NCBI RefSeq assembly: GCF_019059575.1
Contig: NW_024881502.1
Location: 992,001 to 1,056,000 of the forward strand
Length of the DNA: 64,000 nucleotides
Reading direction: 5' to 3'
From: Amphibalanus amphitrite
Taxonomy: Eukaryota > Arthropoda > Thecostraca > Balanomorpha > Balanidae
Every line of letters starts with the position of its first letter. Position 1 is the stretch's first letter. The translations under genes were made by a program, and so were the position numbers. This document shows, one piece after another, positions 9,001 through 56,300 of this stretch. The notes beneath the pieces are model-generated. The model saw only the letters and a list, made by a program, of their open reading frames with translations. It was not told where the DNA came from and did no database searches.

Positions 9001-12000
9001 CGGCCGAGGGGCGGTTGGTGCCGCCCCCCCCCCCCCATAGGTATTTTTTGGCGATATCTCCGAACACCTTGGCGATAGAGAGCTGAAATTTGGCATACCT
9101 ACCTGACCTTTGATTCAAGCTGGATCTTTTGACACCAACCGCATTTTCGGGTCAGGTCAGGTCACTGACCTATGACGTCATAAGTGTACCTCTGCACGGT
9201 CTTCAGATGTCGCAACTTCGCAACGCCCTCACTGCCAGAGTGCCAGAGGAGCTTTCACAGGGATATGAAACTTGCAGGATCTTGCATCCATTACAAGTCT
9301 CACAACTTGTATATCTCGGATTCTTCCTAAAGGTCATATGAGGTCAGGTCATTTTCGTGACCTCACCATTATAAGTCAATGGGGAAAAATGAAAACTGCT
9401 ATTCTGGCGCCGGGAACGATCTCCAACTATCTCAAGCACACAGAATCGTGATTTGATGCACTCCTTGCAAGGTTAGATGCGCCACTTTTGCAATGCTGAC
9501 CTTGTGTGACGTCATTTATGACGTCATCAAGGTCATATTAGTTTTTCGCCAATTACTCCCGATCAAATTAAGCTAGAGAGTCGGGAAAGTCACCAATGGA
9601 CTCAGGAAGACCTGCCGAATCGAATGATATGCGACATGACGTCTTTCGACCAACTTCGTGACCTAGGGGCGCTGACCTGACCGTGACCTGAGGTCAACAC
9701 CCTAAGTTGACCTGACCCAAACAAAAAGTAAACCATTTGACGCGCCTGAGCGAGGCATGACCTTGACATTGACCTTTGATTTTGAGCACATTTTTGGAAT
9801 CCTCAGATTCTCTTTCGTTTGACACCCGATTTTGCCGGTTTTATGCATCCTGCCGTCCTCTAGAACGTTTGCTTTGAGATCACTACACATGTGCCGGTTT
9901 TTGCCTTTGACCTTGACCTCTGACCTTGAAAATTGACCTGAGGTCAAAAATATTAGGTGCTTTAGAATCGTCTCGTAAGGACCTTTCGTTTGGTACCTAT
10001 CGCTTTTGTTTCCGTAGCTCCCCTATTTACGTAGTTAGACAGGGGGGGGGGGGGGCGAAAAACGCCCCCCCCCCTCCGGGCTGCGGTGGTTGGGATTACC
10101 CCCCGGGCTCGGCCGGGTTAAGGTTGACCTTGACAAAAATAGTTCTTGATACGCGGCTAGAACTTTGCACAGGCTTCATTTGGGCGCTTTTTTTAAATCA
10201 TACATCTTGGGGTACTTTTGCGGGTCCCCGTCCTTTTACTTTGAGTTTGTTTGAGTTTCAAGGTTTACAGCGAAACCATCGGTATTTTTGTGATCCTCGT
10301 GGTTCAAATAACCCTTAACGCTATTCTGAGCAATTTGTATTACGTATCTGAAAAAGAAGTGCTGGCATTGACGCCAACTTCACGCACATCCTGTTGTGAC
10401 CCGCTGTGTCGGTGTGAGTTGGTTGTGGTGATGTCCGCTGTGACCCGCCGGCCGCCGTGGCGGTGTCAGATGCCGCGGTGACCGCTGTGCCGTCGCCGCA
10501 GGGTCCGGCTGGCGTCCGTCCGCCGCCGTCTCAGCCGGTCTACATCGGCGGTCCGTCTGGCCAGCCGGCGGCGGCCGGCGGCGGCGCGCACCAGCGCGGC
10601 GGCGGCGGCTCGCTGCCCAACGCCAGCCAGATGGCGGCCGCTGCCGGTTACCCGGGCATGGGCGGCGCCGGGCCACCGTACCACCACCTCCAGCACCACC
10701 TCCCCTACCAGGTGAGGGAGACACCGCGGCTCCGCCTGTACAGGTGAGGGAGACACCGCGGCTCCGCCTGTACCAGGTGAGGGAGACACCGCGGCTCCAC
10801 CGTACAGGTGAGGGAGACACCGCGGCTCCGCCTGTACAGGTGAGGGAGACACCGCGGCTCCGCCCGTACCAGGTGAGGGAGACACCGCGGCTCCACCGGT
10901 ACAGGTGAGGGAGACACCGCGGCTCCACCTGTACCAGGTGAGGGAGACACCGCGATTCCACCGGTACAGGTGAGGGAGACACCGCCACCGCCACTGCCAT
11001 TATGACCGTTGCGGCTCTGTGTGTAACTGCTGTGTGGACTGCTGTGTGACGGATGCGTCCCCCTCAGGACCATCTGCACCAGGAGCAGCTCCGGCTGGCT
11101 CAGGTCGGCTGCCAGCCCATCCCGTACAGCGGCGACCGGCGTGGATCGGGCGTCGGACCGCACCGCAGCCCGCGCGCCAGCGAACACCGGCGCGACACCT
11201 CCCCGTACCGGGCCGGCGGGTCAGTGCGGGTCAGACGCCGGTAGGGGGGGGGGGTCAGTGCGGGTCAGACGCCGGCGGGTCAGTGGTCAGTGGGGGGGGG
11301 GGGGTCAGTGTAGGACATTTTGTGTCAGCCGCCTTTTACATTGTTTTACGACATGCGTTTAGAATTGTGTTTTACCTTTTATTTTACTTAGTGTCGTACC
11401 GAAAAAAAAAATGTTTACGACTTTGCCCTCTACTATGACACTATTGATCTGACGTCACCCAAGGTAAGCTTTCCAATGCACAGCGCTGAAAATTTAAGAA
11501 TTCCTGTCCTGTGGCCGCCAGGTACCTGTCTCCTCCAACGCCCCTCCCTGTGGTCGCCAGATACCTGTCTCCTCCGGCCGACAGCAGCTGGAGGCGCACC
11601 CACTCCGACTCGGCTCTGCACCAAGGTCGGCCGCCGGGGGACGGCAGCGGCGGCCCGCCACCCAGCTACAGCCCCGTGCCGCCACCGCCGGCGGCCCCAG
11701 GTGCGCCACGCTCAGCCCCCCCCCCAGGCGTGCTGCGGGGCTCGGTAGTCTGGTCCGGTGTACGTTCAGCACCGGAGTAGTGTTGCCCGGTAAACGGCCC
11801 CATGTTTTCTGCGCTGCCGCTGCTCCCCGATGCGGTGGGCTCCGTCGCTGAGCTGGTGGCTGCGGTCGCGGGCCCTGCCCGGACGGCCCGTGTCTCTGTA
11901 CGTGTGTGAGCGCTGACCGGTCGCCCTGTCCGCATCTGTGTGTGTGTGCGCGCGCTGACCGGCCGCCCTGTCTGTGTGTGCGAGCTGACCGGTCACCCTG

Positions 12001-12451
12001 TCCGTGTCTGTTTGTGTGCGCGCTGACCGGCCGCCCTGTCTGTGTACGCGTGCTGACCGGCCGCCCTGTCTGTGTGCGCGCGCTGACCGGTCACCCTGTC
12101 CGTGTCTGTGTGTGCGTTGACCGACCGCCCTGGCTGTGCCTGAGCGCGCTGACTAGTGACCGGCCGCCCTGACCGCGTCTGTGTGTATGCGCGCTGACCG
12201 GTCACCCTGTCCGTGTCTGTGTGTGCGCGCGCTGACCGGCCGCCCTGTCTGTGTCTGAGCGCGCTGACTAGTGACCGGTCGCCCTGTCCGCGTGTGTGTG
12301 TGAGCGCTGACCGGCTGCCCTGTCTGTGTGTGAGCGCTGACCGGCCGCCCTGTCCGTGTCTGTGTATCTGAGCGCTGACCGGCGCCCTGTCTGTGAGCGC
12401 TGACCGGCCGCCCTGATTGTGTCTGTGTATCTGAGCGCTGACCGGCCGCCC

Positions 12452-12498
<47 letters not shown>

Positions 12499-15400
12499 AC
12501 GCGCTGACCGACCGCCCTGTCTGTGTGTGAGCGCTGACCGGCCGCCCTGTCTGTGTGTGTGCGCTGACCGGCCGCCCTGTCTGTGTGTGAGCGCTGACCG
12601 GCCGCCCTGTCTATGTGTGAGCGCTGACCAGCCGCCCTGTCTGTGTGTGAGCGCTGACCGGCCGCCCTGTCTGTGTGTGAGCGCTGACCGGCCACCCTGT
12701 CTGTGTGTAAGCGCGCTGACCGGCCGCCCTGTCTGTGTGTGAGCGCTGACCGGCCGCCCTGTCTGTGTGTGAGCGCGCTGACCGGCCGCCCTGTCTGTGT
12801 GTGAGCGCGCTGACCGGCCGCCCTGTCTGTGTGTGAGCGCTGACCGGCCGCCCTGTCCGCCATCAGACGGGTCCGGCTCGGACAGCGCCATGAGCCGTCT
12901 GCACGGGCCGCGGCCCAGCCTGGGGTCCAGCCCGTTGCCGGCAGGCGGACACTGGTCGTCGGCGGCGCCTCCCGGCCAGCGCGGCGGCGGCGGACAGTGA
13001 GTGCGGCACCCGACCCCGCGGAGCCCGGCCGGCCCTTCCGAGCCCGACCGGGCCCTCCGAGCCCGACCGGGCCCCACAACCCCGGCCGAACCCTCCGAGC
13101 CCGACCGGGCCCCTGAACCGTGACTGACGTGCAGCTGTGGTGTGTGTGACGTGCTGTACATGGGTGGAGCTTTTCCAGGAAAGTTGGTGGGGCAAAAAGT
13201 TGTCAAACCTTGGTCAAACCTACAATGTCCGATTGTTAAGTTCGATAAAATACAACGATGAATCAATTCTTCTCATTACAGAGATAATATTTTGCATTAC
13301 ACAGACATTTCAAAGCTCCTCAATGCGAAAAACATTGGTTTGCTAAGCAGTAAAGTCCTGCAAATCGGCTTAAGTTGGTGGGGCAAAACTCTTATTGGTG
13401 GGGCAAAATGGCAAGTTGGTGGGGCGGCCGCCCCACCAAGTGAATAGGAAGCTCCGCCCCTGGTGCTGTACTGTGATGTCTGACGTGCTGTGGTGTGTGA
13501 GGTGCTGTGATGCCCTGTCTGACGTGCTGTGATGCCCTGTCTGACGTGCTGTGATGCCCTGTCTGACGTGCTGTGTCCTGCCTGACGTGCTTTTGTGTCC
13601 TGTCTGACGTGCTGTGGTGTGTGATGTGGTGCCCTGTGTGACAAGCTGTGGTGTGTGACGTGCTATGGTGTGTCTGACGTACTGTGGTGTGTGATGTGGT
13701 GCCCTGTCTGACGTGCTGTTGTGTCCTGTCTGACGAGCTGTGGTGTCTGACATGCTGTGGTGCCTCGGCAGACCGTTGGGCAGCGACTCCTATCTGGCCG
13801 CCGGCGGCCAGCGGGCCCCTGCGGCGACCCTGCCGCCCTCCATGAACAGCTCGGGCTCGCTGCCGGACCTGTCTGCGCTCTCCTTCCCTGCGTCGCCGGC
13901 GCCGGGGGTCAGTCGCGACCAGCCGGCCGCGCCGACCTTCTGCCAGGTCAGGCCACGCCCGGGGGGGGTCCTGCCAGACGGGTCAGTTGTGTGGCCGTCA
14001 AAGGCAGCTAGCGAAGCGTGTTGCGGGGGTATGCTGGGCCACAGCACGGCAACACCCGGCCAGGGTCGGGACTGGTAGCTGCACGTGGCCGCTGGGTGGG
14101 TGACTTGTCAGGCTGGTGTCAGGAATGGCGGCTACTGATAGTGACCAGTTGAAGTAGTGAAGAGCATAGTGCTGCAAATGGGGGTCACGAATATGGCCAA
14201 TAATGCCCAAATGACCCAAAACTAACGTAATCCAATAGATCGTAATATGGTCAGTCAGAGAAATGTTTGGGGGGTCTGAAAAACATGATTTTGATGTTTC
14301 TGTCAAAACTGGCCCCGTTTATAACTGTCAGATTTCCGTGTCAGGTCACAAAAAGCATATACGAGGGGGTATCGAAAAGTTCTGATCATCACCATGAATT
14401 TGATGTGATAGAAATTTGATTTTTTTACATGATGTTCATTACTCCTTTACAAGTCACCACACACGACCGCAAACTTATTGCATCGTTTCTTCAGCTGCCT
14501 CAGGCGGCCATTGTAGGACCTTCGCGCTGTCCCGTAAATCACTGCTCCATCTCATCAATGACGTCATTTCTGTCCTTAGATCAACAGCCATACTGTGGAT
14601 TCTTCATCTCCCGTAACAATCAAGAGTCAGCTAATACCCGGTCATGTGAATTTCTTAGATGCGGTAGGATTTAATGTCCACATCATGTTGTTTCTTCAAT
14701 CGCAGCTCAGGACGAATGGGCGGGGGCGCTGTCGGTGCGGATAAAGCATCTTTTTGGGGCTTTTTTTGCGGCGATTCTGCTTGAGGCCATCTCGCAACTT
14801 CTTCAAAAGTGTGCAGTAGTGCTTGCTTATCATTATCCGACCATCATCAAGACAGTCGGTAATGACTATCCTACGCCAGATCCAGAACACTGATAGCATT
14901 GACCTTCCATATCGGCTTCTGCATCTTTGCCTTTTAAGAAGGACAGATGTGCCGTGCTTAAACATCTTGATCATCTTTTTGTCTCTGGATCATGCACATA
15001 GACCCAGCATTCGTCATAAGTCATCAAATGATCGAAGATGTCTTCAATTTCCTAAAAAAGGCCTAGTTTTCAGTTCGAAAAGCCAAGACGCATTTTTCTC
15101 TTGAACAAAGTAGACACACGAACTTCTAAGCGGGCTGACTCCTTGATCGTCTGTAGTTCTTCGCTGATAATATTTTCAGGCACTGCCAGCATTGAGACCT
15201 TTCTGTTGCACAATCATCTGAAAGGTCACACAACGATCTGTAAGGATGAGGTCCTCCACTTCCTTCACAGTCATCACCTTGTCAGTCACTGGTAGTCACT
15301 CACTTCTTGACTCCCCTGCAAAGACCATGCAACCAAGTTGTAAATTATTTCTTCATTTTCGGTAAGTGCATGAGATAGGCTTTCCTCGCCATAAACTAAT

Positions 15401-18400
15401 TTCACGTTCTTGATGTCATTTCTCAGTGTGATACCGTTTCAAATGCATTAGTTGGATGACGGTTCGGTCCTCAATGGGCCCTTTACTCATCTTTTTTACT
15501 TCTTAGTCTCTCCTACATAAGATAAAACCACTTATCAGGATTCTCTTTGCGGGAACATTGTTCTTAAGAACCAAATATAATGCCAACCAAAAATCATCAA
15601 AATCGGTCTATATCTTCTATGTGATGATCAGAACTTTTCGATACCCCCTCGTATCTGTTAACCCGCGAGTTGCGGGGGGGGGGGGCGTTAAACGCCCCCA
15701 CTTTTTTCGCCGGGCCATAGCATAAAAACGGCGCGCCTGCGCCAAATTTTGGGTACCTGTAGGGAATAGATTGAAGTTTATTGTGACAAAGTTTCAAAAA
15801 AAAAAAATCGGTCGGAAAATTTTTGAGATATCGAGGACGTCATGATCGATCGAGTGATGTCATGATTTCTGAGTTTTCGACCAAAAACGGCATATGTTCA
15901 AAAAATCATATAAAATCACAGAATAGACATACAGACATGCCGGAAACGCCATTAGACTGCCAATACCATGAACAATCAAATGGCTATCTTCGATTATTGA
16001 TTATCGTTCCGCCTTTTCCAAAATCTTGAACTTTAATCTTGGCAATTTCTCGTGAGTACTTCACGACCATGATACATGCATTTCTTAAATTGAGGTTTTT
16101 GAGCCAAACACGTACACATATGATAAAATGAATGTGACCATCGTGTTCTACGCCCCAAATTATCCATAAAACATGTGTCACAGGCTGCGAATATCAGTTT
16201 TGATTTTCGGGGATATGTGCCTACCCGGTTGACCTGACCTTGACCCTGACCTATGCTTGATTGACCCCTATATGGAGCTGACACTCTTGTAGGCCTTATA
16301 TGATGGATTCTGCACCGTTTTAACAGAGTTTATGACGAGAGGCGCCCATTGCGAAGTCCTGAAATCCGTGCTACTGAAAGCCCGATTTCAGGTGTTTGAC
16401 CTGACCTTGACCCGACCTGTGACCTCAAAATTCAACTTTAAAGTACTCATCTGAAGCGTCTCGTCGCGTTCTTTCGTTTGCCGCCTCGTGCGTTTCGCTG
16501 CGTCTATTGGTTCTCGAGTTATCGGCTGGGGGCGTTTAACGCCCCCCCCCCCCAGCAAACGGTGGGTGGCGAAATACCCCAGCAACTGCCGGGTTAAAGG
16601 GACCATCCCACCTTAACATTAGTTTTGAGTTGAGATAGCCAAGTTTGCGGCCAGGCTCAGAAACCACCATTTATCCTGGTCGCAACCCCCGCAGCTTTAT
16701 GGTGTTCAAGAAATTTCTTCCCTTTACTTGCAGGGTGGGACCAGCTTAGTCCCTATCTCTTAACCATTAGCAGTTTCTTGATGACGTCAGCAGTCATTTC
16801 AACGCCCGCCATTCCTTGAACCCGAGTTTTGCTGACCTTGAGCTCCCTTTGTTATCAACGTGAAATCCGTCGTCGGCGCTGAGAAAGCCTATTGCTTTTC
16901 AATTTAATTTGAATATTAGAAGATACCCACCACTGGAACTTGGACTGATATTATACCAAGGCCGAAGATGATCAAGCTGCCTGCTATATCTGGAGCTTGG
17001 TGTTCAACTTCAACATGGAATATAAAACAAAATATCAAAGCAAACTGGATATGGTACTCCAAGTTAAAGTCCAAAGAAATTTTGAAGAGCTGACAATTGA
17101 CATTAATTCTTTTCCTGCAAGGTTTCCATATGGAGATCACACCATGAAGAAATATTTTTGATGTTAACAGTTGAAGGGGATTGATCATCCAGTTTGGACG
17201 AAAGACGCTGCTGACTGTCTTTGGTAAAGGATGTCGGCATGAGGTGCAATTGTGCTTGTGAAGTGGTTATAACTGGTCTTTTCACAGTATTAAATTAAAT
17301 GTGCCATTGCAGCCAAGTGTGTTATCATGTAAGGTAAAATCAAAACCACAATGTTGGTTTTACGAGCATTGAGAAGGCTGGTAGGTAACACCTGCCTGTG
17401 CTCGTAAATCATGCTGCCAAAGTTTTCTAAATTAATTTTATCATACACTTTTGTTATCCAGAATGGTTGCACTATTGTTTGGTATCATATTATTCCATGT
17501 TAATATGGTAGTGTAAAGTCCGACCAACATGTTACCAGATTTGAAGCTGTTACGTTACCTAAGTACCTGTTTTTTACTGGCGTGGTGAATGTCACCTGGA
17601 TTTTGTTTTGAGGTGCAGACCTAGTAACTCTGACTACATGGGTTTGAAGCTATTATCTATTCTGTTTTTACTGGCCTGGTGAATGGCGACTGATGTTGTC
17701 CGTGGATGGCACTGAAACAAATTTTGAGTGTCATGTACAGTGTTTTAATACAATGCTGAGGGCTGAAAGTTGTCTTGTTTAGAGTGGTGAAAGTTCAGGA
17801 TATGCCAGCCACCATGGTGGGTCAGAGTTAATGTGTTGCAGTCAGTTCGGCTTCGGCAAGCACACGGATGGGCATACGCATCAAGACCTGAGGCCTCTTG
17901 CACCAAACTACCTAGCTAGGTAAAATCGAAAAACTGGTTTCAGAATAAGCTAATCTAACGGTGTTAAATTTGTTTGCAATAGCCCAATACATAATCCTAC
18001 ATGTGCTTGCTAAATTTTGCACGCAAATTGTTACATTTGAGACTTGGACTGGGTATACGATGCAAAATAATCCAAGCATTGGTGCAAGAGGATTTTGGTG
18101 CAAGAGGCCTCTGCTCTGCCATACTTTCAGCCAATTTTACCTAGGTAAGTCTTTTCTTTTTTTTCTGCCAAAAGCTATGACATTGTGAATTTCAGTACTG
18201 TGGCCTGTGTGTAGCCTTCAGGAAAGCAATTCTAAATAAAGCTCTGATAAAGTGCAAAATCAGCAATGCAGCCCTCTATTACATTTTCTACAACATCTTA
18301 CTTGTTCCTTGCATGGAGAGAAAAATGCAATGTTATGAATTCGTTTATTCACATAATTTGACAAGCATGCAGTTACCTGCTACTATCACTGCACAAAACA

Positions 18401-21400
18401 GCAGAAAACATCAGTTGATCAAACACAAGACACAACAGAAGTTTACAACATATAGGGCTGCCGAACCTGCTTCCTCCCACCACAGTTGATGCCATTTCCT
18501 AGCCTGGCTTGATGTGAGCACTGAATAGCTGCTTTGTCTAATTACAGCTCACTACCATTCAACTTAAACTACTCTCTTCAAAGTAAGAGTGAGAGCGTTC
18601 AGTGTTCATAGCAGCTCGACAGACGACAGACAACAAACATCTTGACAAACCAACCAGTATTTGATTTGGCTAATGATTTATGTGCTTTTTGTATCATGGC
18701 CAAACTACTTTAACAGCAATAATCCCTGTTTCATCTTGATCTTGCTTTTATTTCCATTTGAACTCAGATCTTGAAACAATCATCTGAACTGATATCAGAT
18801 ACTGGCTTCCGTTTCTCTTGAAAGCAAGTTAAAACAACAATGACAAACTAAGGCAGGAGATGTGAGTTGTGGCAGTAGATTTTTGATTCAACAACCTTAT
18901 ATTGCTTGAGACCTCTGTGACAGACAAACAAATATTTATAGTTTTTTGATAGTTTGGATTCTTGGCTTGATTTAGCAAATCAGCTGTGAACCTTGACTTT
19001 GAAATCACATAAATGTCATGGTACCCGAACAAATCCTCGCATGACATTTCTTCGTAGCACAATTTTTCGTCCGCATTTCTTCGTCTACAAATCTTCGTCG
19101 GTGCATTTATTTGTCCCTCAATGCTTACTCTTGCATATATTTGCGTTGAAGAAGAAATGCGAGCCGATTTTCATATACCCTGATGCGAGACAAAGTAATG
19201 CGATACGAATAAATGCCCTGACGAAGATTTGCAGACGAAGAATTGCGATACGAAGAAATGCCATAAGAAGAATTGTCCTGGAATCCTTCATTGGCCATCA
19301 TATATTGACCTTGATAAGATAAACGCATCATTCGCGCAATATTTGTCGCACTTTGATACCAAATTATTGCTTCCAAATGCCGACGTAAAGAAAACCTTTA
19401 TGTGACGTCATAGAAACAGCGAAGTTCCCAAAAAGTAAACAAAAATAAAAGTCTTATATCTCGAAAACGGGTGAATATTTTCCGGTAAAATTTGGTAGAT
19501 GTTCATTTTCGCTCTTTGTGATTCACGCTACATCACTTTTATGCCAATTCATTAACTTTTTTGAAGGTGGGAGGGTCCCTTTAATTTGGCGGTGCTTCAA
19601 CTATTTGTCATCATGTTCCAGTCACAGTTTTTTTTTCTTAAAGGGAGATAATGAGCTTTCTTTTTCTTAAATAAAAATTACTCGACATCTATACTATTTC
19701 TACTGTAGTTTCTATAAAATATGAAAATTTCCTAGCACATTTTCGTATGTGAAAAAGGTTTTTATTTTTGCAAAAAAGAAGCAGTACTTGCAGTACTTGT
19801 AACACCCACCGAAATGCGTTGTCCTTCTCTATAAAAAAGTCGCAGTTTATGGCGCTTTTGTTTCAAACAGCGACGCTTGGGTTTTTGTTTATGTTATCGC
19901 CTTGTCGTTGCTTGGTTGTAAGGATTCTAATTTGAATTAGAGTTAATTCGGTTTAGAATTAATTAGATTCTAATTCGGGGGTACATACTCTTCTTTGTTT
20001 CCAAGTATTATTTTGCGCCACAAATGAACGGCATGCGCCAGAAACGCAGCCAAATCTTGCGATTGCGACTACGAAATTCATTATTTTGGCGTCAGAGCCT
20101 GAAGCGAAAAAATACAAGCATATTTATTTCAAAAAGACTTCAGGTTTGTCGAACGGTGTTATGAGAATTTTGATAACAGTACTGCATAAGTTTTTCAGTG
20201 ATGCCGCAAAAGTGTTGTATCTATCTTCTTTTATTGTGCAGTCGGCGGGACCGATTCAAAATTGAGTCGTTGCTACTAAAATAGCAGCATATGGCGTCAG
20301 ATGATGAACAGGAAAAATAGTTGCGTAAATTTAGACATAAACCACCCCCAAACCATGAATATCTTTTGAAGGCACTATAGACGACCATTAACTAACTAGA
20401 TGTGATGAAGATCAAATGTAAGGAATACGCTCATTTTACAAAATTACATGCAAGTACCAAAAAGTGATGTAAGTACTTATTCAACGGTCATTTTCAGCGC
20501 TCCCCGCTAACGTGACTTCAAGTTGAGATATTTGCGGCAAGGTACCGAATTGAGCAAAATGGTTTTAATTTACATTATAACTTGTTGTGTTTTGTCAGAA
20601 AATGATCCTAACTCAGATTTTGTGGAAAAAGGTCATTATCTCCCTTTAAAAAATATATATTTGCTTTTGTTTGACCTACAGCAGTTAATTACACAGTGTG
20701 TGCCCATTAGTCCCCCACACCATAGCCTTCCCTAATCATTTCTGAGCCACAGCGTTAAGAATTAAGGCGCTAGCACAGGGCTGACCGACGCTACCAAAGC
20801 TTTCGTCCGGTGCGGTTGGGTGCCGGAGTGGGCGGGCGGCCGCGCCGCGGGCGGCTTGGCCACAGCGGGGGTTCGTTGGTGCATCCCCTGCTGTTCCTAA
20901 ACGGAGCGTCCTAGCGCCGCGCGTCAACCAGCGGATTGCTCCTTACGAAATCTATTATTACTTTTGGCGTTAGGTCAGTATTTGACCTAACCCCCGCGCC
21001 GGGCACGGTTCGTCGGAAGGTCATTTCATGCACAAAAGAAACGAAATATACCATTCGAAAGCTGACAGTGAGCTTATTCCAAAAATGTAGTTTTTATCAA
21101 AATCGTTCGATGGCCTTTTTGAAAATTGCGTTTTTTTTTTTGTAAAAAAACGCTATAATTTTTATTCAACGGGCTGCCTCGGACATTCTTGAAGTCATGG
21201 GCATGTTTTTTTTTTCGTGTCCTAGTGAAAGCTGAACGTCAAAAGAACAATATGTAGCCAAAAAATATTATCAACTATTAATATGCGTCTCTCACAGCCG
21301 ACAAAAAGGCGCAATCACACAACTGAGCGTCGCGATGGATCAAAGTCATCCACACAAGCGTGAAATGACCCTTATCGACTCGCAGACCCGGCGCTCTCGG

Positions 21401-23684
21401 CCCGCCCGCCCGACCACGGAAGGAACGTTCTGCTCTCGTTCTACTAAACGAGTGTGATATTTGTTAGGTTAACGGTCCACATCGCTATCAAAGTTATTCA
21501 GGATACCGGTGAAGAAAGCTCATTGTTCTGCTAGATTTACAACGTGCTTTAATTTACATGTTCTTATACAGGTTTTGCTCTCATTAAAACCTCAAAATCT
21601 AAAAAAATCGACGGATTTTTTTTTTTAAACTTCCTCACAATACACTTCAATCAAATCCCTACAGGTACCCAAAATTTGGCGCATCGCAGTTTTTTAGCTA
21701 TAACGTGGCGAAAAAGTGGGATGCCCTTGACTCACCAGTTGACATTGTTTTTGTTACCAAGTGTCCATTTTTTCACAATCCTGTGCGGTTGTTTCTCCTA
21801 TTTATCGTGTCTACATGTATCGCTGGCATTCGTTCGTATAGCCTCTCACCCGAGACCGAAGGTTTCTCTGCACCCCTCGCCCCCCCCCTTCCTCCCCCCG
21901 CCGGTCTCGTACCCGCTGGATCCGTTTCGGCCGTCCACTGTCCGGTGACTGAGATATTCTGTCCCAGTCGTCCACTGTCCGGTGACTGAGATATTCTGTC
22001 CCCGCCGTCCACTGTCCGGTGACTGAGATATTCTGTCCCAGTCGTCAACAGTCGTCCACTGTCCGGTGACTGATATATTCTGTCTCCGCTTCACAGTCCA
22101 CTGTCCGGTGACTGAGATATTCTGTCCCAGTCACACAGTCCACTGTCCGGTGACTGAGATATTCTGTCCCAGTCGTCCACTGTCCGGTGACTGAGATATT
22201 CTGTCCCAGTCCTCCACTGTCTGGTGACTGAGATATTCTGTCCCCCGCCTCCCTCACAGTCCACTGTCCGGTGCCTGAGATATTCTGTTCCAGTCGTCCA
22301 CTGTCCGGTGACTGAGATATTCTGTCCCAGTCGTCCACAGTCCTCCACTGTCAAGTGACTGAGATATTCTGTTCCCGTTTCGCAGTCCACTGTCCGGTGA
22401 CTGAGATATTCTGTCCCCCGCCTCACAGTCCACTGTCCGGTGACTGAAGTATTCTGTCCCCGCCTCACAGTCCACTGTCCGGTGACTGAGATATTCTGTC
22501 CCCGTCTCACAGTCCTTTGTCCGGTGACTGAGATATTCTGTCCCCCGCCTCCCTCACAGTCCACTGTCCGGTGACTGAGATATTCTGTCCCAGTTGTCCA
22601 CTGTCCGGTGACTGAGATATTCTGTCCCAGTCTCACAGTCCACGGTCCGGTGACTGAGATATTCTGTCCCAGCCGCCCACTGTCCGGTGACTGAGATATT
22701 CTGTCCCAGTCGTCCACTGTCCGGTGACTGTGATATTCTGTCCCAGTCGTCCACTGTCCGGTGACTGAGATATTCTGTCCCAGTCGTCCACTGTCCGGTG
22801 ACTGAGATATTCTGTCCCAGTCGTCCACTGTCCGGTGACTGCTATATTCTGTGCCCGTTTCGCAGTCACTGGGAGGCGTGTCGCCCGTGCACTCTCCGCT
22901 CGGTGAGCGGTTGTTTCCGGGAGTGCCTCCGCCGCAGCGCCACCCACAGCACATTCCGCCGCCGCTGTCACCCGCACAGGTCAGACTGGGCCCGCACAGG
23001 TCAGCACGTCCCGCAGCACAGGTCAGACTCGGCCGGCACAGGTCAGACTCGGCCCACACAGGTCAGACTCGGCCCGCACAGGTCAGACTGGGCCCGCACA
23101 GGTCAGACTGGGCCCGCACAGGTCAGACTGGGCCCGCACAGGTCAGACTCGGCCCGTACAGGTCAGAGCCTCCCCCGAGTTCTGTGTTGGAGGGTGGCAA
23201 TGGTGAGTTTGGGACGTGAATGTTGTCCGGCGGCGCTCCGTCCAGGTGAGTTGGTGTGCCGTGCGGTGCCACGACTGCCGTCTGGGTGCCGCGCCGGCGC
23301 AGCCCGCTGTCGACCCAGCTCAGTGACCCGGCCGGCCGGCTACACCGCGGACAGCTGCCAGTCTGCCAGTCACAGGCCCGTGTCGGTGTCCATCCTGTAC
23401 CCCCGTCTGTCTGTCCGTCCGTCCGTCCGTCCGTCCGTCTGTCTGTCTGTCCGTCTGTCTGTGCATCCCGTCTGCCCGCCCGTCTGTCCATCCTGTACCC
23501 CCGTCCGTACATGTTCCGTCTGTCCGTCCGTCCGTCCGTCCGTCCGTCCGTCTGTGTGTCTGTCTGTCTGTCTGTGTTCCGTCCGTCCGTCCGTCCGTCT
23601 GTGTGTCTGTCTGTCTGTCTGTCTGTCTGTGTTCCGTCCGTCTGTCTGTGCATCCTGTCCGCCCGTCCGTCCGTGTTCTGGTGT

Positions 23685-23726
<42 letters not shown>

Positions 23727-26421
23727 CGTCCGTCCGTCCGTGTACCGTCCGTCCGTCCGTGTTCTGTCCGTCCGTCGGACGGTAAGTTGTCTGCGGCCCC
23801 GGTCTCTGCGCCCGCCGCCTAGTGTTGATGTCAGAACACACCACCCTGGTAGCGGCAGTGCATGGAACTCGGGGCGGATCCCATGCTTCCCATACCTGCT
23901 ACATTGCATGATTAAATAGAGACATCCAGGCATTTAAACGGCACGTGCACTGTACCACACTTTTCAAAGGTTAACCCTCGCCGGACCTATTGGTTTTCTA
24001 CATACGCGCCGGCCGAGGGGGGGCGGGTACGACCCCCCCCTCGCCGTTTCGCCCCTGGTGGAGCTAGCGCGTCGCGGAAAAATCGAGCGTGTGCGCCGTT
24101 ACGAGACGCAGAGATTGGTACCCGATTTTAAGGTCCTAGGTCAACCGGTGACCTCTGAGGTCAGGTCAAGTGCCCCAAGGTACGGTTCAGTTTTTGGTGA
24201 ATAACTTCGCAAAAAACGGCCGCAGAGCCGCGATTTTGGCAGCATCGTGTTCGCCTCGCTTAGGCGCGTCGAATGATATATTTTTTGTGCGGGTCAGGTC
24301 AACTTGGGGTGTTGACCTCAGGTCAAGGTTAGGTCAGCACCCCAAGGTCACGAAGTTGGTCGAAAGGGGTCATGTCGCATATCATTCGATTCGGCAGGTC
24401 TTCCTGAGTCCATTGGTGGCTTTCCCGACTCGCTAGCTCAATTTGATCAAGAGTTATTGACGAAAAACTAATATGACCTTGATGACGTCATAAATGACGT
24501 CACGCAAGGTCAACATTGCAAAAGTGACGCATCTAACCTTGCAAGGAGTGCATCAAATCACGATTCTGTGTGCTTGAGATAGTTGGAGATCGTTCCCGGC
24601 GCCAGAATAGCAGTTTGAATTTTTCCCCATTGACTTATAATGGTGAGGTCACGAAAATGACCTGACCTCATATGACCTTTAGGAAAAATCCGAGATATAC
24701 AAGTTGTGAGACTCATAATGGATACTAGATCCTGCAAGTTTCATTTCCCTGTGACATCTCCTCTGGCAGTGAGGGCGTTGCGAAGTTGCGACATCTGAAG
24801 ACCGTGCAGAGGTTCACTTATGACGTCATAGGTCAGTGACCTGACCTGACCCAAAAATGCGGTTGGTGTCAAAAGATCCGGCTTGAATCAAAGGTCAGGT
24901 ATGCCAAGTTTCAGCTCTCTATCGCCAGCGTGTTCGGAGCTATCGCGAAAAAAACCCTATGGGGGGGCGGCACCCGCCCCCCCCCCCCTCGGCCGGCGAG
25001 GGTTAATGCAATGCTTGAATATTGCAAGCCGTGTGGTTCAAGGGATGTGGTAAAACACGTTGAACCACACGGCTGCTGACGTCACTATCATATAGTTGTG
25101 AGCTTTTTGGCAGGTATGGGAAACACCTTCCAGCCCTAAGGCCGGGAATTCAATAAATGTCACCTCGCTTTTTTTTAGCAAAATCACCTCGGGCCTAACG
25201 GCCCTCGGGGTTTCCGCTAAAAAACCTCGGTGACATTTATTGAATCATCCCGGCCCCGGGCAGGAATATATTATCCTGAGCTCCTATGCCATGGAATCAT
25301 AGATGTAGGTTTTCTCCCCTCGAGAAATGCAGCGATATCACAGATATCGACCTAATTGTTATAGAAAGATCCAGAGTTACGGAATCCTATTATAATTTGT
25401 TAGAGTCATGATTTTTTTGCGAACATTTGCTGCCAATTACAGTGATTCTCTTTTGTTATATGAAGGTGATCACAGTTCACATTCAAAGCTGTGTAACACC
25501 AATTGACATGAAAGCACCAGGTGACATGTTGTTGTATTATATCCCCTCAGATCATAACTAGATCCTTGTTCTTGTCCCTGTCCGTGCTAGGTCCTTGTCG
25601 CGAGGTCCTATGAGATCATAAATTAATGATGGATTTCCACATGGGGTAGATTATAGTCGTAGCGCCTAGCCTGTAGTTTGTCTTGAGCTCTGCTGAAGTC
25701 ACTGATCGCCGCTTGGATTGCCGCACGTGTGTTGGCACTGGCTGCGTATCGGCCGGTTGTGTGTCGTTGGCCGGCTGCATGGCTGTGGCCGGTGGCTGCT
25801 GCCTGACGGCGCCGTCCGTCGTGTGCTCGCCTCCACAGAGTTCGCTGGGCGTGCCGGGCAGCGTGTCGTCCAACTACCTGCACACCTGTAAGGTAGGCCC
25901 CCCCCCTCCCTCCCCCGCGGCCGGGCGGCAGCCGGCCCTCGGCTCGGGAAGGTGACGCGCGCTGCGCGAGAGGACCGGCGCTGGGTCAGGTTCTGCACCA
26001 GCTGACACCGGGGCCATAGGAGCCGTGCAGATGGCCCGTGTGTCGGGGTGCCGTTTTGATCGGGGCGGTGTTGACGGACGGCACGTGTACCCATCGGTCT
26101 GGTGCGGATCGCCGCCGGTGCTGGCAGCAGCCGCGGTACGGCCGGCGCGGCGCCCGGCTGACCAGTGTGCTCTGTGTGCCGCAGGGTGTGACTGTGGAGC
26201 ACCAGCGCCAGCCGGCGCCTGGAGGGTATAGTCCAGCTCAGTACGGCAATCACGCGCCCCAGCAGCAGCACTCACCTCAGCATCACCATCAACATCATCA
26301 CCATAATCAGCAACATCAGCACCATCCACCGCATCACCACAATCAACAACACCATCAACAACATCATCAACAACATCATCAACACCGTCAACAACATCAA
26401 CAACATCATCAACATCAGCAA

Positions 26422-26500
<79 letters not shown>

Positions 26501-28656: not shown

Positions 28657-28736
<80 letters not shown>

Positions 28737-43588: not shown

Positions 43589-43632
43589 CATCCTTCCGGC
43601 CCTAGGTGGTCTCGTTAGACCGAAAGGGCCTA
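43589..43632. repeat. Dispersed repeat fragment, second copy of 5005-5052
   Basis: CATCCTTCCGGCCCTAGGTGG then TCGTTAGACCGAAAGGGCC, same orientation as the first copy. Nothing else is recognised from 43640 to 44430. Confidence 0.5.
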
Positions 43633-44439
43633 TTCCAAGACAACAGACAAAATGATTGACGTACGGGCATTGGACGAACGTTCGTCCAAAAGAGGTGCCT
43701 CTCAATTTCCTCTTTTTTGACTTATAATAGAGAGATTGCAAAGTTTTACCTGACCTTAGGTCACTGACATTGAAATTCCGAGATCAAATTAGGTACATGA
43801 AACATACAATGATATACATATCTACATAATGGTTCATGATGGCAAACGAGATCAGCTTTGTGTGAGGACGAGTGTGTACTGCGTTACACAGTTCTCAGCA
43901 GAAACAGGTGTATCGGGGCAGCTCGGCTCCGATACGGACCGCATTTCACCAGCAGCCGCTCCGACCGATAGCAACGCCTTTAGATACCGCTGGCAGGCAC
44001 TCATACGCGAATAAGATAAGATATCGTCTGACACCGGCTGTACCTAATCCCGCGGACACTGCGTCCGGAGGCCGGCGATCCCTGCCGATGGCCTGATGGA
44101 ATTTCACAGTTCACCTAGACCACAACCGCAACTAGAACACAACCATGGCAATGAACAAGTGGACGGTTCGTACTTAAAGCTCACCGCCGGCTACCATCAG
44201 TGGCCCATAGCTCAAATCGCACGCAGTGCAGAAATGGCCAGTAGCTTATGGCAGCCTTCGTCTCCTCGCCTTCGCCTCATTGTTCTCATTGTTCTCTTTG
44301 CCACCCCTCATTGTTCCCTCATTCAGCCGGTCCCACCGCTGACATGTCGCACGGGTCGCCTACGGACCGACCGCGCAGCCGCCTCGTCCCAGCCCTCCAC
44401 CGTGCTGTTCCGTCCGCGCAGCGTCCCCGCCTCCGTGCT

Positions 44440-44640
44440 CCCAGTCCTCCTCCGTGCTCCCAGTCCTCCGTGCTCTCAGTCCTCCGTGCTCTCAGTCCTC
44501 CGTGCTCCCAGTCCTCTCAGTCCTCCGCGCTCTCAGTCCTCCGTGCTCCCAGTCCTCCGTGCTCCCAGTCCTCCGTGCTCTCAGTCCTCGGGCTCTCAGT
44601 CCTCCGTGCTCCCAGTCCTCGGTGCTCTCAGTCCTCCTCG
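44440..44640. repeat. 16-bp minisatellite built from the ZIP stop-codon segment
   Basis: On the minus strand the unit is GAGGACTGAGAGCACG, where GAGGACTGA is the ZIP gene's last Glu-Asp-stop. About 12-13 copies follow the real stop. Confidence 0.88.
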
Positions 44641-45626
44641 GGCTCGGTGACCAGGCTGACGAGCAGCGCGATCAGCGCGAACCCGAACGCCGTGCAGGCG
44701 AGCCGCGCCAGCTTGTGGCCGTGCCGGCTGCGCTCCCTGCTCAGCACCTCCATGAAGCAGACGAACATGAGCGCGCCCGCCGACAGCGTCTGCAGCACCA
44801 TCAGCGAGATGCCGTGCGCGCGCCCGTCGGCGTCCAGCTGCAGCACGCCGATGCCGATGCCGATGCCGAGCAGCGTGGCGCCGACGAAGGTCAGGATGCA
44901 GCCGAGCTGGGCGGCCGGCTGCAGCCGCGTGGCCAGCAGCTCCAGGCCCAGGATGAACACCAGCACGAACTTGTGGCTGCAGATGGCGGCCAGCATCAGG
45001 TAGACGTCGTTCGCCTCCTCCTCGGCGCCCACGGCGATCCCCTCGAGGACGGCGTGGAACGAGAGCGCCACCAGCAGCAGGACGGTGGACAGCGCGCTGG
45101 CCGACTCGGCCAGCGCGGCGCCGTGCGAGTGCGGCTCCTCGGCGCCGTGCGAGTGCGGCTCGTCGGCGGCGGCCGGCTGCGGGGCGCGCCGCTGCAGCTC
45201 GACGGCGCTCAGCTCGCTCAGCTCCACCTGGGGCGTCACCTTGGCCGCCCCCGGCCGCCGCCGGCCGTGCATGATGGCGTGCGCCACCTCCTCGACAGCG
45301 TAGACCAGGAAGAATCCCACCCCGGTGAGGATGCTCGGCAGCGGGACGTCGTTCTCGACCACCAGTTGGTCGGCCTGCAGGTCGTCCCAGCTCTCCAGGC
45401 TCTCGGGGATCATGTGGCAGAGCAGCGTGGAGAGCAGCACGCCGCCGCCGAAGCACAGCAGGTAAGAGAAGAGCGTGCTGTCGGCCGTGACGCGCAGCGT
45501 GGCGTCCCGGCCGCGCTTGCCGCGCCGCACGATGGCCAGCGCGGCCATGGGCAGGCAGCCGGCCGCCAGCGAGCCCAGGCCGAGCACGGCCAGCGACACC
45601 AGCTTGGCCTGCAGGGCTTCGTCCAT
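44628..45626 (-). CDS. ZIP-family zinc transporter (SLC39A1/2/3 group), intronless
   Basis: 332 residues. ZIPs carry Zn2+ (sometimes other divalent ions) into the cytosol, usually across the plasma membrane in this subfamily. Eight hydrophobic segments fall near 7-33, 52-71, 99-120, 176-200, 207-230, 240-260, 275-294 and 308-326. TM4 has the signature SFHAVLEGIAVG (His191, Glu195, Gly196) and TM5 has ICSHKFVLVF (His218, Lys219), the metal-site residues. The loop between TM3 and TM4 carries two PHSHG motifs, a likely zinc sensor. The start at 45626 sits in ACCATGG and fits family length. The frame stays open 47 codons upstream, but CTGCTCCCCAG just before suggests a 5'-UTR splice acceptor. Third positions are nearly all G/C. 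No intron interrupts the coding part, so it may be an old retrocopy or a family that lost introns. Confidence 0.93.
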   Translation of the reverse strand: MDEALQAKLVSLAVLGLGSLAAGCLPMAALAIVRRGKRGRDATLRVTADSTLFSYLLCFGGGVLLSTLLCHMIPESLESWDDLQADQLVVENDVPLPSILTGVGFFLVYAVEEVAHAIMHGRRRPGAAKVTPQVELSELSAVELQRRAPQPAAADEPHSHGAEEPHSHGAALAESASALSTVLLLVALSFHAVLEGIAVGAEEEANDVYLMLAAICSHKFVLVFILGLELLATRLQPAAQLGCILTFVGATLLGIGIGIGVLQLDADGRAHGISLMVLQTLSAGALMFVCFMEVLSRERSRHGHKLARLACTAFGFALIALLVSLVTEPEED

Positions 45627-45639
45627 GGTATCTGGGGAG

Positions 45640-50300: not shown

Positions 50301-53300
50301 CTTGAAATTTTCAGGTCATATGTAAAAAGGTTGCCCCATAGGCTGTGCCAAATTTGGCGGAGCTGCGCGCCGCCGTTTTTACGCTAGCTTTGAAAAACCT
50401 TAGGGGGGTTGCATCAACCCCCCCTGCCAGGGCGAGGGTTAAGCACCGCGCTTCGCGATGACGATTTGCACTACCTGCCTGGCGGAAGTCTTCCTGCCGC
50501 GACCTAGCTTGTTCTCAGGCGTCTATCCGCTTCTGTTGCGTGACAACCAGCGCCAAATCGTGCAGGAACTCATGCCCAGTGCCTCGGTGACCTGGCCATG
50601 GGTCATGCCGCCGGCAACCATACCGACTGCCCCGCTGTGGGACGATTTGCTCAGCGGCTTTACCAACCTGGACACCTGGTACGCGCGCGCCAGGTACTGC
50701 CCCGGAAATGACCTCCGTACACCCCTTGACCTTTCAGGGTTACAAAAATTCGAAGGTCATGTGACTAGAATGGAATTAGTAAGGGGAAATTATATTGATG
50801 TTGCGCGTACGAGGCAAAATAAAGGCTGTTTGAGTGTTAGAGGGTATGACATTAATTTTGGGACACCCTGAAAATTGTAATTGTATTGTAAAACATCACC
50901 CAAACGGGCCACCATTCCCTGCCTGCCAACCCGGGCATGACCGTCCAGCGGCTCCTCTCCCACTCCCCTCCTCCCCCGCCCCCATTCGGCCCGTCCCACT
51001 CACCAACAGCCCCTCCCAATGCCATACACTCAGCTCGTCCCATGCACTCACAGCTCCCCCTCCCGTACTCGCAGCCCCGTACCGTCACGGCCCGTGTCCC
51101 CGTGCCGCAGCCCGCAGCCCGCTCACTCACGGGCGGCGATGATCAGCGCGCCGGAGGTGGCCTGCAGCGTGCTGCCGGACACCAGTAGCGCCAGCAGCGC
51201 GCGCACAATGGGACTCAGCACCAGCGCCGCCCAGCCGAGCGTGTTGACCAGCGAGAACCAGCGGCGCGCCACGGGCAGGCGCGGCAGCTCTGGCGCGGCC
51301 GACAGCCCGCTGTAGCTGCCCGTCTCCAGGTAGGAGGTGAGCATCTTATCCTGGGGGCGGCCGGAGCGGACCGTCAGACCGCGCGCCGGATCCACACTGA
51401 ACGGTGGGCGCGCGACAGTCCACACGGGCTAGCGGGCAGCACAGTCACACCACTAGGGACAGTCGGCAGCACATTCACAGCAGTCTTACTACTGCAAACG
51501 GCAGCACAGTCACACTACTGCAGTCGGCAGTACAGTCACACTACTGCAGTCAGCAGCACAGTCACACCACTGGGGACAGTGGGCACTGGGCAGCACAGTC
51601 ACACTACTGGGGACAGTGGGCAGTACAGTCACACCACTGGGGACAGTGGGCCTGGACAGCACAGCCACACTACTGGGGACAGTGGGCAGTTGGGCACCAC
51701 AATCACACTACTGCAGTCGACAAGCACAGTCACACCACTGGGGACAGTGGGCAGCACAGTCACACTACTGCAGTCGGCAGCACGGTCACACTACTGCAGT
51801 CAGCAGCACAGTCACACCACTGGGGACAGTGGGCACTGGGCAGCACAGTCACACCACTGGGGACAGTGGGCAGTACAGTCACACCACTGGGGACAGTGGG
51901 CACTGGGCAGCACAGTCACACTACTGGGGACAGTCGACAGCACAGTCACACCGCTGGGGACAATCGACAGCACAGTCACACTACTGCAGTCGACAGCACA
52001 GTCACACCACTGGGGACAGCGGGCCTGGGCAGCACAGTCACACCACTGGGGACAGCGGGCCTGGGCAGCACAGTGGCACCACTCAATGCGCCCTGCGCGG
52101 CAGACGGCTAGCCTTGTTCCGGTAGAGCTGGTGCAGGAGCTCACCAGTCACCTTGTTCCGGTACCGGCTGCTGGTGCGGGAGCTCACCAGTCACCTTGTT
52201 CCGGTGTCGGCTGCTGGTGCGGGAGCTCACCTTGTTCCGGTAGAGCTGGTGCAGGAACTCGGCGGCCTCCTGTTCGTCCTCGGGCACCTCCGACATGGGG
52301 ATGCGCTCCACGTACAGGTCGCCCACGATCTTCTTGCCCAGCATCATGTTGTAGAGCGTCGGCTGGGCATAGTTCTGCCTGCGCCGGCGGTGGCCACACG
52401 TCAGCGGGGCACGGACCGACCGGCCGGGGTAGCACGGCCGCCCCGAGCAGGCGCCGCGGCCACTCAACGGTACCCCGGTCAGCGGCGAAACACGGCACAT
52501 CCGGCGACAGCCGAGGCCTGCTCAGACCGCTTCATTGACTGACCAGAACCAGCTCTGACCCGCAGCTGGCACATTGCGGATATATTTCGTACCACTGGGA
52601 GTAAAACATTACCTCAGCCTAGTGCATTCAGAGCGCATCGCGTTTAAACGGAGCGTGCGTACACACTTAGCCCCGACCTGCGCCGATGCGGCGCGCACAA
52701 CTGTGCGTGCACTCACGTGTCGAAGGCCACCGTCACGTTGTAGACGGCGGCGAACTTGTCCCGCAGCCGCGACACCGAGTATGTGAAGCCCTTGGTGCGC
52801 GGCAGCAGCAGGTGGCGCAGCTCGGGCAGACCCTTGCGGCGGGCCACCTCCATGCTGGCCTCGTGTTTAGCCGCCGTGAAGCGGGTGCCCTCGCAGAAGA
52901 TGAGCAGCTGCGCCGGCCGGCAGAGGCGAGCAACAAAGCTGGTCAGCACTACCAACGAGCGCCAACAGAGTAGTCCAATTTCAGTACCACACAAACCGCA
53001 TCTTAGTATCAGCGGCCCGGCGTGTAACGCTTGCCAGAGGCTCCTATCAGCAGCTGCTGAGCCTATTGACCTGCAGTCTCTTTGGGTAGCCCCATCCCAT
53101 CCCCTCTACCATACCCCCATACCTCATGTCTCTCTCCATACCCTGTAATTGGCTACTCTTGTGCAGCCAGGCGATCGTCGGACGGGCCACTCACCCAGAC
53201 GGTACACCCACCCACACGGGCCACTAACCCAGACGGGCAACTCACCCAGACGGGACACCCACCCACACGGGACACTCACCCACCCAGAGTGGCCCCTCAC

Positions 53301-56300
53301 CCAGACGGGACACCCACCCACACGGGCCACTAACCCAGACGGGAGACTAACCCACCCAGTCGGACGGGCCACTAACCCAGACGGACGGCCACTCACCCAG
53401 ACGGGGTCCGGGTAGTCGGCCAGCACCGCCAGCTGCCGGTCAATGTGCTCCTTGTCCTCGTCCCACTTCCTGCGCAGGAAGATGATGCTGGAGAACACCC
53501 ACGACCAGCCGATGATGGGCACGTAGCGCAGCATGTCCTTCACGTACACCTTTGCGCTCTGCCGGTCACAGCGGCACGGCCCGTCACGGGAGAGCCAACG
53601 GTCGGCCACAGCCGGGTGGCCGCTCAAAACGCAGCTACACCTACAAGGATTTGCTACAACGTTTGCTTGACCCTACAAAGGTCCAGCTAACAGGGTAATC
53701 AAACTGCAGTGTCAGGTCTCAGGAAGTCATGCTCGACTAAAGTAGCAGTCATGGCTGCGACATTGCCCTGTGGTGGGATGAAAAGTAGACAAAGTGACGC
53801 TAAACACCAAACCTCACATCTCACCCCAGTGTACCGAACCTGTCGGAGTGTGAGCTATAGTAATCTCACCCCGAGCCACCTGTCGAGTGTGAGCTATAGT
53901 AATCTCACCCCGAGCCACCTGTCGGAGTGTGGGCTATAGTAATCTCACCCCGAGCCACCTGTCGGAGTGTGAGCTATAGTAATCTCGCCCCAGTGTGCCG
54001 CACCTGTCGGAGTGTGGGCTATAGTAATCTCACCCCGAGCGTGCCGCACCTGTCGGAGTGTGGGCTATAGTAATCTCAGCCCAGTGTACCGCAGTAATCT
54101 CAGCCCAGTGTACCGCAGTAATCTCACCCTATAGTAATCTCACCCCAGTGTGCCGCACCTGTCGGATTGTGAGCTATAGTAATCTCACCCCAGTGTGTCG
54201 CACCTGTCGGAGTGTGAGCTATAGTAATCTCACCCCGAGCGTGCCGCACCTGTCGGAGTGTGGGCTATAGTAATCTCACCCCAGTGTGCCGCACCTGTCG
54301 GAGTGTGAGCTATAGTAATCTCACCCCGAGCCACCTGTCGAGTGTGAGCTATAGTAATCTCGCCCCAGTGTGCCGCACCTGTCGGAGTGTGGGCTATAGT
54401 AATCTCACCCCAGTGTACCGCACCTGTCGGAGTGTGAGCTATAGTAATCTCAGCCCAGTGTACCGCAGTAATCTCAGCCCAGTGTACCGCAGTAATCTCA
54501 CCCTATAGTAATCTCACCCCAGTGTACCGCACCTGTCGGAGTGTGAGCTATAGTAATCTCAGCCCAGTGTACCGCAGTAATCTCAGCCCAGTGTACCGCA
54601 GTAATCTCACCCTATAGTAATCTCACCCCAGTGTGCCGCACCTGTCGGAGTGTGGGCTATAGTAATCTCACCCCAATGTACCGCAGTAATCTCAGCCCAG
54701 TGTACCGCAGTAATCTCACCCTATAGTAATCTCACCCCAGTGTGCCGCACCTGTCGGAGTGTGAGCTATAGTAATCTCAGCCCAGTGTACCGCAGTAATC
54801 TCAGCCCAGTGTACCGCAGTAATCTCACCCTATAGTAATCTCACCCCAGTGTACCGCACCTGTCGGAGTGTGAGCTATAGTAATCTCAGCCCAGTGTACC
54901 GCAGTAATCTCAGCCCAGTGTACCGCAGTAATCTCAGCCTATAGTAATCTCACCCCAGTGTACCGAACCTGTCGGAGTGTGGGCTATAGTAATCTCGCCC
55001 CAGTGTGCCGCACCTGTCGGATTGTGAGCTATAGTAATCTCACCCCAGTGTGCCGCACCTGTCGGAGTGTAAGCTATAGTAATCTCAGCCCAGTGTACCG
55101 CAGTAATCTCAGCCCAGTGTACCGCAGTAATCTCACCCTATAGTAATCTCACCCCAGTGTGCCGCACCTGTCGGAGTGTGAGCTATAGTAATCTCACCCC
55201 GAGTGTGCCGCACCGGTCCGCCATCAGCCAGCCCATCAGCCAGTCCACTTCATAAGTGTGGTTCATGACGAGCAGAACGTGCTCCTTGCCGAAGAACTGC
55301 GCGTCCTTGGGGTCGACATAGCAGCGGCTGTCCGACTCGGACCACCATTCTGCCAGGAACACCAGCTCTGCGCACAGAACAGGGGACCAGGTCCGTCCGT
55401 CACAACGCAGGAGTCCAGGTGTCCGTCCGTCACAACGCAGGAGACCTGGTCAGTCCGTCCGTCACAACGCAGGAGACCTGGTCAGTCCGTCACAACGCAG
55501 GAGTCCAGGTGTCCGTCCGTCACAACGCAGGAGACCAGGTCCGTCCGTCACAACGCAGGAGACCAGGTCCGTCCGTCACAACGCAGGAGACCAGGTCCGT
55601 CCGTCACAACGCAGGAGACCAGGTCCGTCCGTCACAACGCAGGAGACCTGGTCCGTCCGTCACAACGCAGGAGACCAGGTCCGTCCGTCACAACGCAGGA
55701 GACCAGGTCCGTCCGTCACAACGCAGGAGACCAGGTCCGTCCGTCACAACGCAGGAGACCAGGTCCGTCCGTCACAACGCAGGAGACCAGGTCCGTCCGT
55801 CACAACGCAGGAGACCAGGTCCGTCCGTCACAACGCAGGAGACCAGGTCCGTCCGTCACAACGCAGGAGACCAGGTCCGTCCGTCACAACGCAGGAGACC
55901 AGGTCCGTCCGTCACAACGCAGGAGACCAGGTGTCCGTCCGTCACAACGCAGGAGGCCAGGTCCGTCCGTCACAACGCAGGAGACCAGGTCCGTCCGTCA
56001 CAACGCAGGAGACCAGGTGTCCGTCCGTCACAACGCAGGAGACCAGGTGTCCGTCCGTCACAACGCAGGAGACCAGGTGTCCGTCCGTCACAAACCTTCG
56101 GCTGTAACACAGCATTAGAGGGTGACTGACTGCGACAAAATACAGTAAAACGGCCAAAACGGCCGACGGTGCAAAAGTCCCAATGACAGGATGTTAGGGA
56201 CAGCCTGTCCAGATATCTACATATGTGTTGCAAATTGTCTTAGGCTCGAACAGTGAGATCACACCTGAAAAGTGACAGGGAATTTAAAATGGCCATCCCA

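Follow-up and report, generated by a model that had tools for sequence, protein, structure and literature searches.

Why should tandem repeats end, time and again, at the edges of exons? The question is raised by a stretch of 64,000 nucleotides from the barnacle Amphibalanus amphitrite (positions 992,001 to 1,056,000 of contig NW_024881502.1; hereafter the window, located on contig C5 of the 807,550,619-base genome), in which three predicted genes, CRTC (TORC), a ZIP zinc transporter and AGPAT, carry minisatellites beside or across splice sites and stop codons. A first-pass annotation had claimed that these arrays are anchored on such boundaries. The observation is largely real and is confirmed in part, and the interpretation given to it is partly supported. 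The arrays are probably boundary minisatellites of the kind described as 'mirages' in amphioxus, in which short duplications would originate in GC-rich exon flanks, become lengthened, and be kept where one intact copy of the signal remains.

Tandem Repeats Finder (TRF) returned 148 rows for the window, which were merged into 45 arrays with a period of at least 7. Copying of the edges themselves was assessed with 16-mers, allowing up to two edits and a copy within 140 nt, at 38 coding edges comprising 17 donors, 18 acceptors and 3 stop codons (AGPAT exon 1 was located later, and the donor count covers CRTC and AGPAT exons 2-6). Nine of these edges lie inside a tandemly copied segment, namely six donors (CRTC exons 2, 3 and 7; AGPAT exons 2, 3 and 5), one acceptor (CRTC exon 4) and two stop codons (CRTC and ZIP); with the stops set apart, a boundary-spanning tandem repeat is found at 7 of the 35 splice edges of the window. 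In the introns of these genes, 38% of all 16-mers have a tandem copy, compared with 8.5% of coding 16-mers (the polyglutamine tract of CRTC exon 9 included), 11.6% outside genes and 0.1% in locally shuffled sequence.

The placement of the arrays likewise departs from chance. An array end falls within 20 nt of 14 of 34 intron edges, while random placement of the arrays in their own introns yields 5.06 on average (standard deviation 1.60, maximum 13 in 20,000 runs). Exon flanks are GC-rich: outside the arrays, intron DNA has 72-74% GC in the 40 nt nearest an exon and 43-48% at more than 160 nt from it. To allow for this gradient, a second null took its seeds from noncoding DNA of matched GC and dealt with the 27 TRF arrays that are noncoding and belong to the gene spans, the coding arrays at 26272-26530 and 45094-45182 and all arrays outside genes being left out. 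Seventeen of the 27 have an end no more than 20 nt from an edge, whereas GC-matched seeds lead to an expectation of 4.5-8.4, and none of 2000 runs reaches 17 at any GC cut. Array ends in the window thus genuinely cluster at edges, as the first-pass annotation had proposed. Its further suggestion of a single recurrent process is plausible, because the clustering occurs on both strands and the units are unrelated, with one matching pair, over 26 bp, among 28 arrays compared. Self-repetitiveness of the edges was considered as a seed and received no support, as 16 array-free edges hold 4.8 repeated 5-mer pairs compared with 6.4-8.1 in GC-matched DNA.

The edges are those of predicted gene models, which agree with the earlier exon numbering, have GT-AG at every intron and yield open spliced frames. 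CRTC occupies a coding span of 5928..37428 on the plus strand in 14 exons (5928-6044, 10502-10711, 11068-11219, 11561-11700 or with its end at 11625, 12867-12996, 13772-13946, 22866-22979, 25839-25892, 26185-26601, 27115-27195, 28399-28554, 31970-32096, 36675-36776 and 37316-37428, the stop being at 37428). The ZIP gene on the minus strand (44628..45626) consists of a single coding exon with the stop codon TGA at 44630-44628, and AGPAT, also on the minus strand (51123..58595), has six exons (58595-58412, 55367-55198, 53558-53397, 52907-52717, 52378-52231 and 51350-51123). Pfam cut-offs are exceeded by TORC_N (3.8e-18) and TORC_C (6.3e-7) in CRTC, by Acyltransf_C (2.7e-20) and Acyltransferase (1.7e-11) in AGPAT, and by Zip (1e-47); TORC_M (0.0013) stays below its own cut-off, and a PDB search using AGPAT gave no match. 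The N-terminus of CRTC appears to be of arthropod type. Within CRTC exon 9, CAN and CAG repeats encode a long histidine and glutamine tract (26272-26530).

How far the repeated units reach into the exons was judged by gapped alignment. Among the CRTC arrays, which are given on the plus strand, the one at the donor of exon 2 (10699..10985) has a unit of about 32 bp with 13 exon nt in the homology and 8 further copies of CAG/GTGAGG, and the one at the donor of exon 7 (22971..23167) has a 20 bp unit with 9 exon nt and 9 further copies resembling CAG/GTCAG. The duplications at the donor of exon 3 (11202..11310; about 25-28 bp in few copies, 18 exon nt) and at the acceptor of exon 4 (11500..11578; two copies of 39 bp) fall below the TRF score cut. 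At exon 4 (11522-11561), two acceptors stand 39 nt apart, both in frame (13 codons), which may amount to an alternative site. On the minus strand, the donor arrays of AGPAT comprise units of about 45 bp at exon 2 (53818..55218), 17 bp at exon 3 (53181..53405) and 43 bp at exon 5 (52127..52260), with 21, 9 and 30 exon nt in the homology, respectively. The ZIP stop codon is covered by an array on the same strand (44430..44645) whose 16 bp unit resembles GAGGACTGAGAGCAC, with 18 coding nt in the homology, and the CRTC stop-codon array (37419..37629) has CAGTGA in its first three units.

An ungapped symmetric 20-mer test overlooks gapped copies. Gapped alignment adds the acceptor of CRTC exon 7 (21932..22871), where a 37 bp unit takes in 6 exon nt and the best copy reads TTCACAG/TCCACTG against the real TTCGCAG/TCACTG. 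Less surely, it adds the acceptor of AGPAT exon 2, before which an array (55380..56093, minus strand) stops 12 nt short and may share homology with 14 nt of the exon. Weak homologies are seen at the donors of CRTC exon 9 (26599..26700; a duplication of about 21 bp with 3 exon nt, score 28 against a shuffle maximum of 24) and exon 12, where about 98 copies of 29 bp (32087..34995) begin 15 nt past the donor and 10 exon nt are included. In an exon-only comparison, exon 24-mers were aligned to the adjoining array at 21 edges, against 443 control coding 24-mers. All controls are beaten at four edges (CRTC acceptor 4, AGPAT donors 2 and 5, ZIP stop), and another five (CRTC donors 7, 9 and 12, CRTC acceptor 12, AGPAT donor 3) have P below 0.05, where about one would be expected by chance. 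Values are higher at CRTC donors 2 (0.09) and 3 (0.06), CRTC acceptor 7 (0.27), the CRTC stop (0.63) and AGPAT acceptor 2 (0.20). Thus, among the edges originally listed as copied, six of seven donors, two of five acceptors (one of which needs gapped alignment) and both stop codons stand. The acceptors of CRTC exons 5, 6 and 12 do not; their arrays stop short of the exon by 9, 9 and 6 nt.

Splice signals are carried by the copies at several edges, as judged by a simple donor-consensus count. Decoy GT sites score at least as well as the real donor in 8 of 16 cases at CRTC exon 2, 9 of 11 at CRTC exon 7, 46 of 65 at AGPAT exon 2 and 4 of 5 at AGPAT exon 5; they rarely do so at CRTC exons 3 (1/13), 9 (1/9) and 12 (5/552) and at AGPAT exon 3 (3/43). 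Compared with donor and stop arrays (8 vs 11, Mann-Whitney), acceptor-side arrays contain little AG (P 0.005) and much CT (P 0.0001), whereas GA (0.93) and TC (0.46) do not differ; they look like copies of the stretch from branch point to AG. A branch-point motif clearly exceeds its frequency in shuffled sequence in the acceptor arrays of exons 5, 6 and 13, but not in the other six of the nine. The strand skew, which varies from array to array, would follow from the signals copied. Further arrays accompany edges at some distance: one in CRTC intron 5 (13010..13113) begins 13 nt into the intron, and of two in intron 10 (27206..28358), one is 10 nt away from the donor and the other 40 nt away from the acceptor of exon 11.

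The question then arises of whether such copies are confined to this locus. An outside sample was assembled, from among the matches listed, of eight chaperonin genes (PF00118) and six MCM (PF00493) or kinesin (PF00225) genes of the same genome, with exons located by profile and introns resolved by profile continuity, a procedure blind to repeats. Of 37 chaperonin introns resolved, 6 were dropped for poor profile continuity, and of 19 MCM or kinesin introns 3 were dropped, plus 1 as the second copy of another, leaving 46 introns with 92 edges. The MCM and kinesin part is not a random sample, because four of its six genes (L038, L041, L042 and L046) were chosen for assembly copies that differ in layout, which may favour introns with insertions. 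Boundary copies occur at 4 of the 46 acceptors and at none of the 46 donors, and the phenomenon is thus not confined to the window. The acceptors in question belong to the chaperonins L029 and L032 (two copies each) and L035 (four) and to the kinesin L044 (four, by an equal criterion); 3 of the 92 edges pass a stricter 24-mer test. Most units at L035 and L044 are whole 3' splice modules, consisting of a branch-point-like CTAAC or CTGAC, a C/T tract, CAG and the exon start. A tandem event that spans a donor of the chaperonin L037 was not counted as a donor copy, because it is a loose cluster of seven 16-mers, none of which lies within 24 nt of the donor.

Copy number at two of these acceptors differs between the two copies present in the assembly, which may be alleles or paralogues: by one criterion, there are four against three for the chaperonin L035 and its counterpart L048, and four against seven for the kinesin L044 and L049. 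In the second sequence of L032 (L050), an extra copy is visible by eye but contains an insertion, and counting with five substitutions allowed recovers the real site alone. Unaligned stretches were also seen in three pairs of second copies, where TRF gave no array at their edges. Many of the genes located in this way are present twice, on contig pairs such as C401/C887, C1029/C1931 and C405/C801, which may represent unmerged alleles or old duplicates. The chaperonin matches on C233 and C689 lie in open frames of 1633 and 1756 amino acids, unlike the intron-rich host genes, and these contigs are possibly bacterial.

By comparison with the sample, the window locus is extreme. Tandem copies are found for 3.6% and 4.4% of the intron 16-mers in the other genes, compared with the 38% of the window genes, and TRF arrays make up 5.5% of the sequence in twenty 10 kb stretches, of which four flank the window. 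Donors are copied at 6 of 18 in the window and 0 of 46 elsewhere (Fisher 0.00025), and acceptors at 2 of 18 and 4 of 46 (P=1). Along the window introns, copies are present at 7 of 36 junctions, fewer than the 15-17 of 36 at +30 to +120, and they fall off steeply inside exons (0/36 in the window, 0-1/92 in the other genes). The other genes have copies at 3 of 92 edges, at 1-4 of 92 positions at +30 to +60 and +75, and at 1-2 of 78-88 further in. As the junction is no richer in copies than the adjacent intron, these counts do not support a process aimed at the boundary itself, and the earlier suggestion of active targeting finds no backing in them.

Contrary to the first-pass statement that no described system resembles these arrays, there is a precedent in amphioxus, where tandem duplications of exon-intron boundaries in the globin, Adh3 and PGBD5 genes have been termed 'mirages' (PMC3087553, PMC3902484). 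Many units there contain AG/GT, haplotypes differ in copy number, splicing is reported to be undisturbed and the cause is called unclear; a model of intron gain from mirages has been published as well. The edge-containing arrays of the barnacle have the structural features of mirages: as in amphioxus Adh3, PGBD5 and the globins BflGb6 and BflGb9, minisatellite-like copies span donors or acceptors, and many units include AG/GT. The six and three copies of the BflGb6 haplotypes can be set beside the differences between assembly copies noted above. Unlike amphioxus, here many edges of one locus are involved, stop codons too, and arrays of about 100 copies stand beside some edges; in the accessible portions of the two accounts, no stop-codon array was met. 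Variable internal tandem repeats of human duplicated genes (PMC2812944) are similar in that minisatellites of about 30 bp change gene structure, and differ in that the part of that account available to us makes no mention of anchoring at exon edges. Repeats in an earthworm metallothionein intron (PMC12783039) are, in what could be consulted of the report, not described as located at edges. A literature search found nothing on minisatellites or intron tandem repeats in barnacles, or on intronic minisatellites at splice donors. What is new is how densely the arrays crowd a single locus, stop codons among the affected edges, and probably their occurrence outside the lancelets.

In the mechanism that we favour, a short segment, about 16-100 bp long, that spans an exon edge or lies next to it would be tandemly duplicated, and the GC-rich exon flank may favour such array births. 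Unequal exchange or slippage would then add units and homogenize them on the noncoding side, while the copy adjoining the exon would go on serving as splice site, branch-point region or stop. Splicing would have to tolerate the decoy sites, and selection would remove copies deep in coding sequence, which would account for the sharp cut at the exon.

Several results weigh against this account. The arrays before CRTC exons 5 (11902..12857, with GCTGACC and a C/T tract in the unit and no copied AG/exon), 6 (13463..13762, with TCTGACG in the unit), 12 (28936..31963, about 103 copies of 30 bp, almost without AG), 13 and 14 (both within 36509..37289) stop 9, 9, 6, 14 and 26 nt short of the exon, respectively. 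In none of the five does the best alignment take in the AG, so these arrays adjoin the edge without copying it, although at exon 12 the exon-only comparison gives P 0.018. TRF intervals that cross an edge are in weak excess only (7 vs 2.5-4.1 in GC-matched placement, P 0.0065-0.12). In the other genes, five edge crossings among 16 tandem events stand against 2.2 expected, with a marginal P=0.045, and one of the five, that at L037, is weak; L029 fails the 24-mer test, its units copying the exon start and little of the intron side. The difference in donors between the window and elsewhere is not predicted by one uniform process. Finally, CRTC exon 11 and AGPAT exon 4 each turned up a single time in the genome, so that instability within the window itself would be a conjecture.

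Some of the same data could be explained without any special link to edges, if repeats arise in any GC-rich DNA, exon flanks among it, and are kept out of coding sequence, so that arrays accumulate next to exons. The GC gradient of the introns and the mostly GC-rich arrays of the genes agree with this, as do two AT-richer first exons (GC 0.44 and 0.46) with no array at their donors and the crossing counts, which at high GC cuts are compatible with the GC-matched null (P 0.08-0.12). We nevertheless regard it as unlikely, given that the 17 array ends near edges far exceed what GC-matched seeds produce and that array-free edges are no more self-repetitive than GC-matched DNA. It is less probable still that the arrays existed near the exons first and were captured, as splice sites or stops moved in or intervening DNA was lost. 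The acceptor arrays that end 6-26 nt before the exon would suit such a history, and so would a CRTC protein that presumably extends past the end point of its vertebrate relatives; the 9-30 nt of exon sequence in the units speak against it, as do the four copied junctions outside the window, which profile continuity fixes without extra codons.

A process tied to transcription or splicing, such as polymerase pausing, R-loops or breaks at splice sites, might preferentially duplicate boundary DNA. The clustering of array ends beyond the GC null, the five edge-crossing events in other genes and the AG-poor, CT-rich acceptor-side arrays, expected from an origin in the branch point and C/T tract, are in its favour. 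Against it are the arrays at two of three stop codons, including that of ZIP, which has no coding intron, and a density at junctions that does not exceed that of the neighbouring intron; we consider this process distinctly improbable. A broader version, in which transcription- or processing-linked duplication operates in distant animal lineages, copies the edges of coding exons, stops included, and gives rise to individually variable, redundant splice modules, is a long shot in our view. Least credible of all is the creation of introns by duplication of AGGT-containing segments (the Rogers model), which the first-pass annotation had thought might be happening repeatedly here. Intron gain by tandem duplication has been reported in potato (PMC4974935), and the arrays of the window share with this model duplicated segments that carry splice signals, with AG/GT in the units. 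Unlike new introns inside an exon, however, the edge arrays sit downstream of stop codons or within introns as modelled here, and from this genome alone no gained intron is evident.

Other features of the window are a perfect AT dinucleotide run of 38 copies at 28659-28734, and a region of different composition in CRTC intron 12 (35000-36140) which is flanked by two G/T-rich arrays and looks like an insertion. A retroelement at 60160-63369 on the plus strand comprises reverse transcriptase, RNase H and a partial integrase core, the integrase scoring just under its Pfam cut-off. Scans of the window for Rfam families and tRNAs gave no match.

If the arrays are indeed boundary minisatellites of the amphioxus kind, such repeats would be no oddity of lancelets, and they could be counted genome-wide in another sequenced animal. 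Arrays of intact decoy splice sites would then constitute natural experiments on how the spliceosome chooses among equal sites, and also on how arrays start and grow.

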